From assembly GCA_021228405.1 (NCBI GenBank), contig JAJQRF010000004.1:186001-250000 (forward strand): a DNA stretch of 64,000 nt, written 5' to 3'. Both the position numbers and the translations under genes were made by a program. Shown piece by piece: positions 957-63,530 of this stretch; positions within the stretch are counted from its first letter, which is position 1, and the number at the start of each line of letters is the position of its first letter. The notes beneath the pieces were generated by a model. It worked only from the letters and a program-made list of their open reading frames with translations. It made no database searches and had not been told where the DNA came from. Source of the stretch: Pyrinomonadaceae bacterium. GTDB lineage: Bacteria; Acidobacteriota; Blastocatellia; Pyrinomonadales; Pyrinomonadaceae.

Positions 957-1337
957 TTATTTCAAGCCCGATTGCGATTTCGACAACATTTTATCGTTTT
1001 GAAAGACCGCGAAAACGAATTGGAAATTGTCGCCCGACCATTTATATGAAACCGTTTTGTAGTTTCCGATCTCCGAACTGCTCATTTCCTCGCCTTCACT
1101 GCCCATCACCGCAACCGCTTGTTTGTATGACATTCCGTTTTTCAATTGATTGTATTTGTCCATTGAAATTCCCGCGTTTTCTTTTGCCGCAGGGGTTGCG
1201 GACGGGTTCGTTCCGTTCGGTGTCGAGCTCGGCGCAGTCGTATCCTGAGATTTTTTCAATTCGTCTAATTTCGGACACGAACATCCCAAAACGACAAGCA
1301 CCACAACAATCAAACCTAAGTTGAATTTATTCTTCAT
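957..1337 (-). CDS. Small lipoprotein with DUF3862/SmpA-like domain
   Basis: A 126-residue envelope protein. The N-terminus has a hydrophobic segment ending in a lipobox (VVLGC, Cys at about residue 19), so it is predicted to be lipid-anchored. A Thr/Ser/Pro/Ala-rich linker follows. The C-terminal half (about residues 58-120) has the pattern YNQLKNGMSYKQAVAVMG with a later YKW strand, which resembles DUF3862/SmpA-OmlA domains related to the beta-lactamase-inhibitor fold. ATG at 1337 is preceded by a GGAGAG ribosome site. It sits between gap and pgk, but a terminator separates it from gap. The function is unknown; the family assignment rests on pattern only. Confidence 0.8.
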   Translation of the reverse strand: MKNKFNLGLIVVVLVVLGCSCPKLDELKKSQDTTAPSSTPNGTNPSATPAAKENAGISMDKYNQLKNGMSYKQAVAVMGSEGEEMSSSEIGNYKTVSYKWSGDNFQFVFAVFQNDKMLSKSQSGLK

Positions 1338-1415
1338 TTTCTCTCCGGCAGAATTATTTTTGTTTGAACATTACAATAAGATAGGTTTTCGTGTCAAAAA
1401 TTTCATCGCAAAAAA

Positions 1416-1445
1416 GAAAAACCGCCGATTTTTCAGCGGTTTTTC
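1416..1445 (-). terminator. Rho-independent terminator after gap
   Basis: A perfect 10-bp stem (GAAAAACCGC at 1416-1425 against 1436-1445) with a 10-nt loop. On the minus strand it is followed by a U-run from bases 1415-1411. It lies 27 bases past the gap stop codon and so separates gap from the lipoprotein gene. Confidence 0.85.
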
Positions 1446-1471
1446 TCATAACTGTCAGTTGTCAGATAAAA

Positions 1472-2479
1472 TTACAAACCCTTTTCGGCAATGAATTTGA
1501 CCAGATCGCGCACACGGCACGAATAGCCCCATTCGTTGTCATACCACGAAAGAATTTTGATGCAGGTTCCGTCGATGACCTTCGTATTTTCCGCATCAAC
1601 GATCGAAGAATTGGAGTTTCCGCGAAAATCTATCGAAACGAGCGGTTCTTCCGAAACGGCAAGAATTCCCTTCATCGCACCGTCTGCCGCTTCCTTCAAC
1701 ACGGCGTTGACTTCTTCGACCGAAGTCGATTTTTCGACGTTCATCGTGACATCGACGAGCGAAACGTTCGGTGTCGGCACGCGCACCGAAATGCCGTCAA
1801 ACTTCCCTTTCAGATCGGGAATGACGAGCGCAACGGCTTTTGCCGCGCCGGTCGAAGTCGGGATCATCGAAAGTGCCGCCGCACGCGCACGGCGCAAATC
1901 CTTATGCGGTAAATCCAAAAGCTGTTGGTCGTTCGTGTAGCTGTGAATCGTATTCATCAAAGCGTTTTTGATGCCGAATTTTTCGTGAATCACTTTCGCA
2001 ACGGGTGCCAGACAGTTTGTCGTGCACGAAGCGTTTGAAATGATCTTGTGCGCCGCCGCATCATACATTTCATCGTTGACACCCAAAACGATCGTCACGT
2101 CTTCGCCTTTTGCAGGTGCGGAAATAATGACTTTTTTAACCGAACCGCGCAGATGCTTGCCTGCGTCTTCGGCTTTCGTAAAACGTCCGGTCGATTCGAT
2201 GACGATCTCCGCACCGACCGATTCCCAATCGATCGCCGAAGGGTCTTTTTCGCTGAAAACCTTAAAACTGTCGTTATCGACCTTGATCGTATCGCCGTCC
2301 GCAGAAATATCATTATGCAGATTGCCCATGATCGAATCGTATTTCAAAAGATGTGCGAGCGTTTTTGTGTCCGTTAAATCGTTGACGGCGACGAAATCAA
2401 TATCCGCGTCGCCGAGGCAGGTTCTCAAAACATTTCTGCCGATGCGTCCGAAACCGTTAATACCTACTTTAATTCCCAT
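1472..2479 (-). CDS. gap: Glyceraldehyde-3-phosphate dehydrogenase, type I
   Basis: This enzyme oxidises glyceraldehyde-3-phosphate to 1,3-bisphosphoglycerate with NAD. At 335 residues it has the normal family length. The Rossmann motif INGFGRIGR lies at about residues 7-15. An Asp follows at the end of the second strand (AVNDLTD), which favours NAD over NADP. The catalytic motif SCTTNC gives Cys152, and the partner His179 is in the [10 protein letters not shown] segment. The ATG at 2479 has a GGAGG site about 12 bases upstream. It is divergent from the TolC-like gene and ends in a strong terminator. Product and start are well supported. Confidence 0.97.
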
Positions 2480-61362: not shown

Positions 61363-61435
61363 ATATTTTACGTATTAAAATCAAACACTTTCAAAACTCG
61401 CTCAAACTTCAAGCAATTTTTATGCCTATTATAAA

Positions 61436-61834
61436 TTATTTATTACCGGGATTTTTGAATTGCGTGTATGCAACTCTGAATAATTCCGATAAGGCTTTGG
61501 CGGTTTCGGGTGTTAAATTTTTATCGGCACGTAAATGCGCTTCGACGATTTCCGGCGTAGCTTCGTGCGGATAATATATAACAGGTTCAATCTCTTCTTC
61601 ATTCCCGTTTTTTCTCATCACGCGATCGACCGGCATATCCAGCCAGGTGGTCAGACGCGCAATGTTGTCTGCGTCGGGTTTTCCCGTTCCGTTTTCAATG
61701 CGTGAAAGCGTCGAAGCCGAAACATTTGTGACATCGGCAACGTCACGCAAACTTAATTTCAATTCCTCGCGGCGGCGTTTAATGGCACGTCCGAGTTCGA
61801 TTGTATTGATAAGACTTTCATTTTTGAATGCCAT
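61436..61834 (-). CDS. XRE-family HTH transcriptional regulator
   Basis: A 132-residue DNA-binding regulator from ATG 61834, which has a GGAG ten bases upstream. The longer frame lacks a good start. The helix-turn-helix is at residues about 15-65 (GRAIKRRREELKLSLRDVAD, then VSASTLSRIENGTGKPDADN). A short C-terminal extension (residues 70-132) has no recognised domain. It is divergent from the SWIM-Rad52 gene with a 220-base shared upstream region containing operator-like repeats, so it is a candidate repressor of that gene. Confidence 0.87.
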   Translation of the reverse strand: MAFKNESLINTIELGRAIKRRREELKLSLRDVADVTNVSASTLSRIENGTGKPDADNIARLTTWLDMPVDRVMRKNGNEEEIEPVIYYPHEATPEIVEAHLRADKNLTPETAKALSELFRVAYTQFKNPGNK

Positions 61835-61934
61835 AATTTTGTTTCTCCACTTTATATCAAAATCAAGTGCCATAGATGCACCTGCCATTTCATAGATAAA
61901 ACATAACATAGGAAAATTTTAAATGCAACACCGC

Positions 61935-61988
61935 GTTTCACACTTGCAACAAAGAAATTGTTTTGATACAATGTTTCACAGATGAAAC
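61935..61988 (+). promoter_or_regulatory. Promoter with operator-like repeats for the SWIM-Rad52 gene
   Basis: TTGCAA (61944-61949) and TACAAT (61967-61972) are 17 bases apart. An inverted repeat GTTTCA-N4-TGAAAC (61973-61988) begins immediately after the -10. A second GTTTCACA half-site (61935-61942) lies before the -35. Such placement would let the divergent XRE protein block transcription. The motifs are seen; the regulation is inferred. Confidence 0.6.
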
Positions 61989-62055
61989 GAATGGGTATTT
62001 ATCTGATTGCAAACATTGAGTAATCACTAATTGCAAAACAAAAGGGAGAAAAGAA

Positions 62056-63288
62056 ATGACAGCAATAGCAGAAGAAAAAAATTTAGCGGAGAAACGCGAT
62101 AAGCGGGCAAGATCGATTGCCGCGATGGGATTGGTCAATCGTGAAGGCGATAAATTTCGTGTTTCAACGCCGAGTTTGCGCGGAAAACAGAACACTTACG
62201 ATGTTTGGCGCGATGAAGCGGGTAAAATCCGCTGCAATTGTTTGGAGTTTGAAGAAGCTGCTGTCACGGATCCGGGATTTCGATGCGAACATATCTTAGC
62301 GGTGAAATACGCTCTGGTCGCCAAGAATACCGAACCCGTCACGAAACAATCGGTCAACGTGAAAACCGAGATTGAAGTTGTTTCAAAGGACAAAAGCGCA
62401 ACTGAGTCGTCCGAAACGTCCGCGGACGGCGAACAGAAGCCGATCGAGGTTTCAGCCGATGTTTCAACCGCAGGACAAGTTGAAACAGTTGAAGCGAAAC
62501 CGAGATCACTTGCGAACACAAAAGGAGAAAATAAAATGTTACAGGAAAATTTAAAGGAAATGGAAGGTTTCGTGACGGCTGAAGAGGCTTCGTTTGAGAT
62601 GAATGAATCGCTGAATAATGTTTTGACTTTTACTTCGACCTTGAAGGAATTGAGAAAAAACGTTGATCCGAATCTGGTCAAACAACGTGAAGGCTGGCGC
62701 GACCGCAACGGAAATGCGCATTACGTCGATTATGTCGAATGGCACACGGTTGCCGATATTCTCGACCAGCACGCGCCGAACTGGTCGCACACGGTCAAGG
62801 ATATTCGTCAGATCGGAGGAATCTTCACGGTTACGGTCGCGATCACCATCGACGGCGTGACGCGTGAAGGAATCGGAACGGGAATGGCTGACAGCGAACT
62901 GGGCATCAAAAAAGCCGAACACGACGCGCTCAAACGGGCGGCGGTCAAATTCGGTATCGCCCGCGATCTTTACAAGAAAGAATCGGACGTGATCGAACGC
63001 GACGGTGCCGTGCCGACTTCGCCCAATGACGGCGGCAACGGCGGCAATGCAGGTTTTCCGACCAACCCGATCGCGCGTTCGCTTTCCGATCTCGTTACGG
63101 CGAAACAACTCGGGATGATTCGGGCGATCGCGCGTGAAATGAATGTCGATCCGGACGAAGAATGCAACACCGTAATGGAATGCAAAACGGACGAACTCTC
63201 GAAAAAAGCGGCTTCGGCACTGATCCAGCATTTGCAGGATTTGCAAAAGGAACAACAGACGGAAGTTCCGATGCGCCGTGCCGGGTAA
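62056..63288 (+). CDS. SWIM zinc-finger / Rad52-Rad22 fusion protein
   Basis: A 410-residue protein. Residues about 45-85 form a SWIM zinc finger (CNCLEF, then FRCEHILAV). A Glu/Ser/Thr-rich linker (about 90-160) follows. Residues about 200-310 match the Rad52/Rad22 single-strand-annealing family (YVDYVEWHTVADILDQHAPN, GTGMADSELGIKKAEHDALK, RAAVKFGIARDLYKK). The C-terminal 60 residues (TAKQLGMIRAIAREMNVDPD) resemble a helical domain found with phage recombinases. A GGGAG site precedes ATG 62056. At the linker end an AAAGGAG with ATG 62536 eight bases later could start a Rad52-only product of 250 residues. DNA-repair or annealing function is inferred from the family. Confidence 0.87.
   Translation: MTAIAEEKNLAEKRDKRARSIAAMGLVNREGDKFRVSTPSLRGKQNTYDVWRDEAGKIRCNCLEFEEAAVTDPGFRCEHILAVKYALVAKNTEPVTKQSVNVKTEIEVVSKDKSATESSETSADGEQKPIEVSADVSTAGQVETVEAKPRSLANTKGENKMLQENLKEMEGFVTAEEASFEMNESLNNVLTFTSTLKELRKNVDPNLVKQREGWRDRNGNAHYVDYVEWHTVADILDQHAPNWSHTVKDIRQIGGIFTVTVAITIDGVTREGIGTGMADSELGIKKAEHDALKRAAVKFGIARDLYKKESDVIERDGAVPTSPNDGGNGGNAGFPTNPIARSLSDLVTAKQLGMIRAIAREMNVDPDEECNTVMECKTDELSKKAASALIQHLQDLQKEQQTEVPMRRAG
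62521..62538 (+). promoter_or_regulatory. Internal ribosome-binding site and ATG in the Rad52 fusion
   Basis: AAAGGAG at 62521-62527 is eight bases before ATG 62536 in the same frame. The spacing and strength equal or exceed those of the gene's own start. It would give a product that lacks the SWIM finger. Confidence 0.65.
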
Positions 63289-63300
63289 TTTGACTTGAAA

Positions 63301-63530
63301 TTTGTATCGGCAGAAAAACGTTCGGTTGCAGATATTAGAAGAACGTTAAAAGACCTCATAATTTTGCCGATACAAACCCGGAAGTCCTCACCAATCGGTT
63401 GTTTTGAGTTGTGAAACCGTCCAGCTTTCTCCACGGAGCCAGCAATCTCACACACAACTCAAAACACTCTCACTTACAGACTTTTGAAACATTCGAGTGT
63501 TTTGAAGAGCAATAACTCCCAAAGTTATAG
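63301..63530 (+). ncRNA. Candidate structured RNA with alternative stems before a DUF1579 gene
   Basis: Four sets of complementary arms occupy this gap. A: 63301-63312 against 63365-63376 (12 bp) with an inner 7-bp stem. B: 63401-63413 against 63453-63465 (13 bp). C: 63460-63469 against 63495-63504 (10 bp), which cannot form together with B because they share 63460-63465. D: 63512-63517 against 63523-63528, followed by five T and then the next ATG (63536). It matches no riboswitch class I know. It may control the downstream gene or end the Rad52 transcript. Confidence 0.55.

Follow-up and report, generated by a model that had tools for sequence, protein, structure and literature searches.

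Internal in-frame starts and leader operators are already known. In T7, gene 4 encodes a 63-kDa and a 56-kDa primase-helicase (4A and 4B), and the use of an internal in-frame start drops the N-terminal zinc domain from this ring-forming DNA protein; we know of no RNA control element in T7 gene 4. An internal in-frame start is also said to be used in SpaO, and yeast Rad52 protein species were reportedly traced to multiple start codons in a study from 2006; to our knowledge, no SWIM-type domain is involved in yeast. Here, a gene at positions 62056–63288 (+ strand) of a 64,000-nt stretch of DNA from a Pyrinomonadaceae bacterium (contig JAJQRF010000004.1; the whole stretch is referred to as the window) was analysed, in which a SWIM zinc finger is fused to a Rad52/Rad22 annealing domain and in which the linker between both domains carries an RNA element followed by an internal ribosome-binding site. 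This one gene probably gives rise to two in-frame products, with the start of the Rad52-only product being controlled by the cis-acting RNA; both the short product and the control of internal initiation by the element are what we infer from comparison with relatives.

Compared to this locus, T7 gene 4 is similar in that a zinc domain is removed by an internal in-frame start, but the protein family is a different one, and yeast Rad52 likewise has more than one start but is eukaryotic. The layout of the element has a parallel in T4 gene 32. As described in the available part of the source (PMC535899), the gp32 operator consists of a pseudoknot of ~28 nt and a less structured region of >40 nt containing the ribosome site, and gp32 binding is nucleated at the pseudoknot and spreads over the ribosome site. 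Both in T4, where a protein for single-stranded DNA controls its own message, and in the window, a folded element lies upstream of a less structured segment with the ribosome site; in T4, the pseudoknot moreover shares sequence with segG, a reading frame located upstream (same part of PMC535899). Unlike the T4 operator, the window element is larger, comprises two hairpins with complementary loops, and is located inside the same in-frame open reading frame (ORF) ahead of an internal start. In type I-B CRISPR-Cas systems, Cas11b is made inside cas8b through an internal start, which is likewise a case of one gene with two in-frame products; there, however, what the internal start yields is a small subunit in its own right, and no structured upstream RNA is described in the available part of that source (PMC11899642). 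The phage Sak/Erf-type and Rad52/Mgm101 annealing proteins have the fold that is modelled for the short product, whereas the window gene is syntenic and genomic and has in addition a SWIM domain and an embedded RNA element. In the open-licence PMC literature, neither a SWIM-Rad52 protein nor an acidobacterial RNA motif next to Rad52 was found, and the same literature yielded no covarying element that is common to a leader and the interior of an ORF and precedes an internal Rad52 start.

The SWIM-Rad52 gene and its internal start

That SWIM and Rad52 share one ORF, as proposed in an initial annotation of this DNA, was confirmed: the frame of 410 codons (62056–63288) is open, and orthologues of it were found. 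In the window protein, the SWIM domain (PF04434; residues 52–87, 62209–62316) was matched at E 1.1e-3 with 18.9 bits, slightly below the gathering score of 19.6, and the Rad52_Rad22 domain (PF04098; residues 197–310, 62644–62985) at E 1.6e-9 with 38.3 bits, above the gathering score of 20.3. Among 22 aligned fused proteins, the Rad52 profile was matched by 22 and the SWIM profile by 16 (E 0.01 or better), and the SWIM ligands C60, C62, C77 and H79 (CxCx(n)CxH) were invariant in all 22. The linker (residues 94–186, 62335–62613), in which both the RNA element and the site of internal initiation are located, is predicted to be disordered: in the AlphaFold model of the window protein the predicted local distance difference test (pLDDT) score is <50 over residues 94–174 and 176–186, and the SWIM and Rad52 parts are modelled confidently. 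A conserved, helical C-terminal region at residues 349–403 (63100–63264) was delimited by conservation and AlphaFold.

The positions of the internal Shine-Dalgarno (SD) sequence AAAGGAG (62521–62527) and of an ATG (62536–62538) at a spacing of 8 nt were confirmed, and this start would open a Rad52-only product of 250 amino acids (62536–63288). The site had been placed exactly at the end of the SWIM/linker part, which does not hold: Met161 sits in the long disordered linker, 36 residues ahead of the Pfam Rad52 match. Due to this position within the linker, the 250-residue product would retain the entire Rad52 fold. The model of the short product (residues 161–410) has a mean pLDDT of 82.3 and resembles human RAD52 (Z 13.0, 131 aligned residues, root-mean-square deviation 4.4; Foldseek E 2.4e-8), Mgm101 (Z 11.9) and Sak of phage 80alpha (Z 11.7). 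The relation to RAD52 was decided by this fold comparison; sequence searches of the PDB gave no match for the single protein, and RAD52 at E 0.22 or worse for a profile.

For the comparative analysis, matches were collected from 38/60 sampled relatives and 106/162 genomes of the class, paralogues and partial matches counted in, and from at least 80 public contigs; the nearest named relatives are metagenome-assembled genomes (MAGs) of Acidobacteria, many of them labelled Pyrinomonadaceae. After removal of duplicates, the main set comprised 85 loci: 46 fused genes, 35 genes without SWIM and 4 truncated loci, the latter being left out of the fused/alone counts. Two groups of fused genes, G1 (17 genes, the window included) and G2 (21 genes), form the 38 core fused genes, and the eight fused outliers were left out of the G1/G2 statistics.

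The internal start codon occupies one aligned column in 17/17 G1 and 21/21 G2 genes (37 ATG, 1 GTG). Loss of AAAGGAG in close relatives had been named in the initial annotation as an observation that would refute its reading; this did not prove true, as the site is kept in 38/38 core fused genes. The SD reads mostly xAA GGA GAN in G1 and [GA]AG GAG, in a different codon phase, in G2. Amino-acid changes around the G1 site (K/Q before, E/D after) spare AAGGAGA in most genes; other or weaker SD versions are present in L040, L043, L044 and L064 of G1, and GAG GAT or GAG GAA is found in L053 and L057 of G2 (L057 via its copy L015). The mean internal SD energy of −8.06 kcal/mol is identical in both groups. 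After synonymous recoding it amounted to −5.57 ± 0.50 kcal/mol in G1, with 0/2000 recodings as strong as the real genes, and to −6.73 ± 0.62 kcal/mol in G2, with 28/2000 as strong. Of the remaining in-frame ATGs in these genes, only 8/129 (G1) and 28/166 (G2) attain an SD energy of −5 or better. The 30 nt before the internal start are predicted to be unpaired at 0.60 (G1) and 0.68 (G2), whereas 190 positions drawn at random from these genes gave 0.38 (sd 0.10). A search for any SD with start codon anywhere in the linker gave 43/46 observed against 24.6 (codon shuffles) and 33.2 (synonymous recoding) expected, a much weaker test since the linkers are rich in Glu and Lys. An SD arising as a chance product of such a Glu/Lys-rich linker was rejected on the basis of the position-specific tests, namely the aligned column and the SD energy. 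Comparison thus shows conservation of the internal start, the SD and the openness of the start region; beyond the constraint imposed by the peptide, the case for the SD and start codon is decisive in G1 and moderate in G2. Among the fused outliers, L029, L065 and L102 have SD and ATG in the linker, and L070 has a GTG candidate only.

The RNA element in linkers and leaders

Prediction and covariation point to a folded element that is followed by an unpaired ribosome site: for the RNA copy in the window, a fold of −43.5 kcal/mol (z −2.99) was calculated, in which SD and ATG are predicted to be unpaired. The hairpin P1 (62402–62436, + strand; CUG-AG-stem-loop-stem-CGNA-CAG) was recognised in the linker of each of the 38 core fused genes from its motif and from covariation, and its frame phase is the same in 38/38. 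By complementarity, its loop GUCC (62418–62421) is the proposed kissing partner of GGAC (62473–62476) in the loop of a second hairpin, P2 (62461–62486). A tentative closing helix, P0, would pair CGCAA (62397–62401) with UUGCG (62510–62514). For P2, pair counts in G1 gave 118/136 against 94.5 ± 4.0 (0/5000 as high), and for P0, in G1 only, 74/85 pairs in 17 genes against a shuffled mean of 67.3 (0/2000 as high), with a clear compensatory change in L032.

P1 pairs were counted at 146/153 in G1 compared to 93.5 after synonymous recoding, and at 176/189 in G2 compared to 126.8 (0/3000 in both cases); since synonymous recoding destroys the pairing, it is the codon choice that preserves P1. Compensatory changes are seen in the outer helix, which reads CUG/CAG in G1, CCG/CGG in G2 and UCG/CGA in L011; a caution is that the arms had been located by motif. 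In G2, one alignment column, found independently of the P1 search, holds the codon GNA (Glu 8, Gly 6, Val 4, Ala 3) with A as third base in 21/21, and is followed by CGG in 20/21; in these genes GTA accounts for 4% of Val codons, GGA and GCA for 13% and 16% of their families, and CGG for 9% of Arg codons. In the G1 loops, GUCC faces GGAC in 15/17 genes, whereas L045 and L064 have GUCU facing AGAC. Nine G1 genes (L032, L033, L034, L035, L036, L038, L040, L042, L069) have in-frame inserts of 77–86 nt at the tip of P1, which fold as hairpins. The inserts extend P1, and several of them encode repeats like IRNPKS or IQNPKS; they appear to be a palindromic repeat that is tolerated in coding sequence because the stem gets longer.

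The same element is present in front of Rad52 genes without a SWIM domain. When the two SWIM-less paralogues L002 and L108 are excluded, 33 genes encode Rad52 alone, and all of them start, with SD and ATG, where the internal start of the fused genes lies. Between promoter and ATG, these genes have CTGAG-stem-loop-stem-CGNACAG in common. P1 was found in 33/33, in 31 of 32 leaders by pattern search and in L080 and L095 by a search with model R1, which was not trained on these sequences (L080 31.4 bits, L095 38.7 bits, truncated L067 43.6 bits); L095 had been left out of the leader scripts, as its regulator gene is 2.2 kb away. A stricter P1 search (at least 5/6 inner pairs, A in CGNA) was positive in 28/32 leaders and 16/17 G1 genes and in 0/960 and 0/510 shuffled sequences, respectively. 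The A of CGNA, where it was no search criterion, is present in 31/31 leaders and 17/17 G1 genes. In 39 aligned P1 copies (31 from leaders, 8 coding), 93.4% of the cells pair, and 58 double-sided changes were counted compared to 17.0 after shuffling (0/500 as high); pairing is best at slide 0 and drops strongly when the register is slid. U-G forms the first stem pair in 30/39 and C-G in 9/39 copies, and this conserved U-G favours the sense-strand RNA, as a T-G mismatch would make no sense in duplex DNA. By this comparison, P1, and in G1 also P2, is shown to be under selection at the RNA level on the sense strand. P2 follows P1 in the leaders as well, with complementary loops such as GUCUGA/UCAGAC and GCCUGA/UCAGGC, and the leader kissing score was 14.13 with own partners against 12.43 ± 0.50 with swapped ones (1/2000 as high). 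An in-frame stop codon lies between P1 and ATG in 28/31 leaders of the alone genes. As the SWIM-less relatives keep both element and start as an ordinary 5′ leader, the two appear to form a self-contained Rad52 expression unit. L078, L084 and L111 (3/31 SWIM-less genes) still have an open frame that extends upstream from the ATG through P1, which may be left over from a recent loss of SWIM.

Model R1 detected one copy in the genome of the window (G000; 5.7 Mb, 20 contigs), at the SWIM-Rad52 locus. In a genus rich in Rad52-only genes, 35/41 genomes had matches, and for 36/37 matches a Rad52 gene lay no more than 300 nt away; since many of these genomes had contributed to the training of the model, the information lies in the single-copy result. 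Among 297 genomes of the phylum, four matches outside the family were found at E 0.01 or better, which is about chance level, with no Rad52 nearby. The off-locus matches in G361, G244, G163, G187, G112:C1 and G023 were taken as chance, and queries with SWIM, Rad52 and the regulator gave nothing better than E 0.47 in the 2.3–2.4 kb around off-locus matches. The element is essentially present in one copy per genome, at the gene of the presumed repressor only. A search of Rfam 15 with window positions 61400–63400 and eight Rad52-only loci, in which matches were listed to E 5, gave no match near any gathering score.

Several observations weigh against two products with an RNA-controlled internal start. 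The permutation test for kissing in G1 was not significant (13.32 against 12.70; 211/2000), only 2/17 genes being variable, and in G2 neither P2 nor kissing was established. Model R1, built on short-loop copies, found 0/21 G2 hairpins and 1/9 G1 copies with large inserts (L038, E 0.018), so that the identity of the missed copies with P1 is based on motif, position and covariation. The arms had been located by YYGAG/CGNNCRG, by which the outer pairs and motif bases, and in G2 also the fourth base, were partly preselected. P1 is absent from 8/46 fused genes (L029, L031, L065, L070, L075, L093, L102, L103), from the divergent fused genes L136 and L137 and from the SWIM-less genes L134, L135, L138, L140, L141 and L143, and in L062 and L063 the distance from P1 to the ATG is only ~60 nt; L063 is the locus of the cultured Pyrinomonas methylaliphatogenes K22, in which the G2 element is reduced. 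The SD signal of G2 exceeds the peptide constraint only moderately (28/2000), and among the eight non-core fused genes L031, L075, L093 and L103 are without a convincing internal start. Finally, due to the relatedness of the sequences, all shuffle counts are not probabilities.

Evolutionary history, proposed control and alternatives

A gene for an XRE-family regulator is located upstream on the opposite strand in 76/85 main-set loci; of the nine others, six end at a contig edge and L002, L065 and L108 are without it. Based on this shared divergent regulator, the main-set genes were regarded as one orthologous locus. When the Rad52 part was used for a maximum-likelihood tree (83 rows, without L002 and L108, rooted with five fused outgroup genes), all 33 alone genes fell into a clade of 37 rows together with three fused and one truncated gene, and 3 label changes were required. 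In a second tree with eight added rows, rooted with three distant SWIM-less paralogues, the 33 alone genes were in a clade of 39 rows with five fused and one truncated gene, at 8 label changes; two of these five, L136 and L137, have very long branches. L138–L141 and L145 were not included, being too diverged, or in the case of L139 without Rad52 part and in the case of L145 a duplicate of L070. Because the 33 alone genes are nested inside fused ones on both trees, loss of SWIM on their line is the simplest reading and most likely. That the class as a whole descends from the fused form was dismissed as a conclusion, since the first rooting used fused outgroups only and the second tree leaves the base unsettled, with 8 label changes and several very long branches.

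Relatives with two separate genes, as called for by the initial annotation, were sought. Among the loci examined, no close relative has separate SWIM and Rad52 genes: when the surroundings of the SWIM-less genes were scanned for C-x-C...C-x-H in ORFs of at least 60 amino acids, three stray matches turned up, of which none lay next to the gene at the 33 main-set SWIM-less loci, and no SWIM-only relative was found among the matches listed for the genus in which alone genes abound, where a diverged SWIM gene may lie elsewhere. Two of 12 distant small Rad52-paralogue loci examined (L142, L144, L146–L155), L144 and L150 of family f6, have a small SWIM-like ORF that immediately precedes a small Rad52 gene, the frames of the two being different. 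In L144 (1028–1878), the SWIM-like ORF runs to 1423 and is followed by the Rad52 ORF from 1447, with a Pfam SWIM score of 16.6 bits against the cut-off of 19.6; in L150, the SWIM-like ORF is at 1068–1493 (reverse-strand reading). This layout is possibly a picture of an ancestral two-gene state, and with such loci in existence a deep origin by fusion of neighbouring genes is possible.

In the proposed mechanism, initiation at 62056 would yield the SWIM-linker-Rad52 protein of 410 amino acids, and initiation at the internal SD and ATG (62521–62538) a complete predicted Rad52 annealing protein of 250 amino acids without the zinc finger. The linker codons would double as a cis-acting RNA, in which P1 and P2 with kissing loops are followed by an A-rich, unpaired ribosome-binding site, and the element may tune internal initiation. 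Rad52 protein could nucleate on P1/P2, spread along the unpaired leader and cover the internal ribosome site, and ribosomes translating the SWIM part would melt the element and thereby couple the ratio of long to short product to upstream initiation. Such an autogenous translational control, with Rad52 as the supposed ligand, is the favoured mechanism and is suggested tentatively by analogy with T4 gene 32, given the restriction of the element to the Rad52 locus and the layout of a folded element followed by an open leader with the ribosome site. Equally tentative is the broader proposal of a new class of regulatory RNA folded within an ORF, with kissing hairpins, in some lineages a third, closing helix, and responsiveness to a protein or ligand. 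It might switch between a long zinc-finger subunit and a short Rad52-only subunit of one annealing ring, and the upstream half of the gene would later have been stripped in one lineage, with the RNA left as a 5′ leader.

The initial annotation had left two products and joining of two genes by stop-codon loss as options. Two products are strongly supported by comparison, namely by the column-fixed start, the nucleotide-level SD, the open start region and the Rad52-only relatives that start there. A recent fusion by stop-codon loss would have left the ribosome site as a non-functional relic, and a strong SD with ATG between two domains is the remnant expected of a decayed intergenic region; L144 and L150 also make an old fusion of neighbours plausible, which is compatible with two products. 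The recent event is nevertheless highly improbable, as the SWIM-less genes of the main set are nested in fused ones with no adjoining SWIM-pattern ORF, and a relic would not retain SD, start and covarying pairs in 38/38 genes at 52–82% protein identity to the window (17 measured). Even less credible is a linker motif that is kept for its peptide as a short linear motif, with RNA structure and SD as by-products. The single frame phase in 38/38 core fused genes and a partly conserved TES...GEQK would fit, but the 33 Rad52-only leaders keep the motif, 28/31 of them with an in-frame stop between P1 and ATG, the G2 GNA codon varies its amino acid freely while its third base is fixed, and synonymous recoding breaks the pairing.

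An element acting as DNA, either as operator of the regulator or as recombination site, could be read from the GTTTC/GAAAC with which the P2 arms begin in most G1 genes, in resemblance to the probable operator palindrome upstream of the gene, and from two f8 relatives that have exact operator palindromes within the linker; the U-G first pair of P1 (30/39, with C-G in 9/39) suits sense RNA and not duplex DNA, and this explanation is very unlikely. Stable mRNA hairpins commonly serve as processing sites, and a site for processing or stability, e.g. for RNase III-type cleavage that would free a short mRNA for Rad52-only translation, would also fit the leaders of the Rad52-only genes. The conserved single-stranded bases and the complementary loops rather suggest that the element takes part in binding or in a tertiary contact, and processing is a rather unlikely function. 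Somewhat more room, within the range of the unlikely, is left for a ligand-sensing riboswitch that would govern the internal start by means of P0, kissing hairpins and the downstream ribosome site, with no protein operator involved. The covarying P0 of G1, the loop-loop complementarity, the conserved unpaired bases beside the helix and the window fold with its unpaired SD and ATG agree with it; on the other hand, the element is tied to one gene and essentially to a single copy per genome with no regulon seen, the spacers between helices vary, P0 was examined in G1 only, and no Rfam class was matched.

With two products and an RNA-controlled internal start as the preferred reading, one DNA stretch would serve as protein linker, folded control RNA and ribosome site together, and the lineage that retained RNA and start without the upstream coding half provides a natural control. 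It suggests that an internal start may come before, and allow, the loss of a domain. Two questions would become testable, that of annealing rings with mixed subunits and that of self-regulation of a bacterial Rad52-type protein via its own mRNA. Gene prediction by longest frame gives the long protein only.

Upstream region and further loci

In the window, the divergent XRE-family (HTH_3) regulator gene is located at 61436–61843 (− strand) and was assigned by profile match and as a syntenic neighbour. The likely main promoter of the SWIM-Rad52 gene is TTGCAA-17-TACAAT at 61944–61972 (+ strand), a match that is weak when taken alone (2 sites vs 1.1 expected); a promoter-like block similar to that of the window is also present upstream of the Rad52-only genes. 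It is directly followed at 61973–61988 by the palindrome GTTTCACAGATGAAAC, which is probably the operator of the divergent regulator. Within the linker, a TTGCGA/TAAAAT match at 62510–62537 is no more than expected (2 sites vs 1.1), and the indication of an internal promoter is accordingly weak. The exact palindrome GTTTCANNNNTGAAAC is found inside the coding linker in three copies in L093 (3337–3424) and in two copies in L102 (3352–3403), in addition to upstream copies; these linker copies hint at binding of the regulator within the gene. One of the fold matches in the PDB, 8qe9, is a complex of phage Sak with the SaPI2 Stl repressor, and the window likewise pairs an XRE regulator with a protein of the Rad52/Sak fold, so that a direct contact between Rad52 and the regulator is conceivable.

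Outside the main set, SWIM-less genes are L134 (family f6, regulator adjoining), L135 (f8), L143 (f2) and the diverged L138, L140 and L141, which belong to one family and have the regulator adjoining; L136 and L137 are fused but divergent. L139 (G048:C46) has SWIM and the conserved C-terminal helical region with no Rad52 domain between them, and model R1 gave no P1 match there either. Two public MAGs have two Rad52 loci each: in one, L066 and L071 are both SWIM-less with the regulator adjoining, and in the other the fused L034 is accompanied by the paralogue L108, which is without regulator. A second Rad52-like protein of ~150 amino acids with 35% identity is encoded in the genome of the window at G000:C9:125932–126375 (L002, L146), and similar proteins are present in several relatives.

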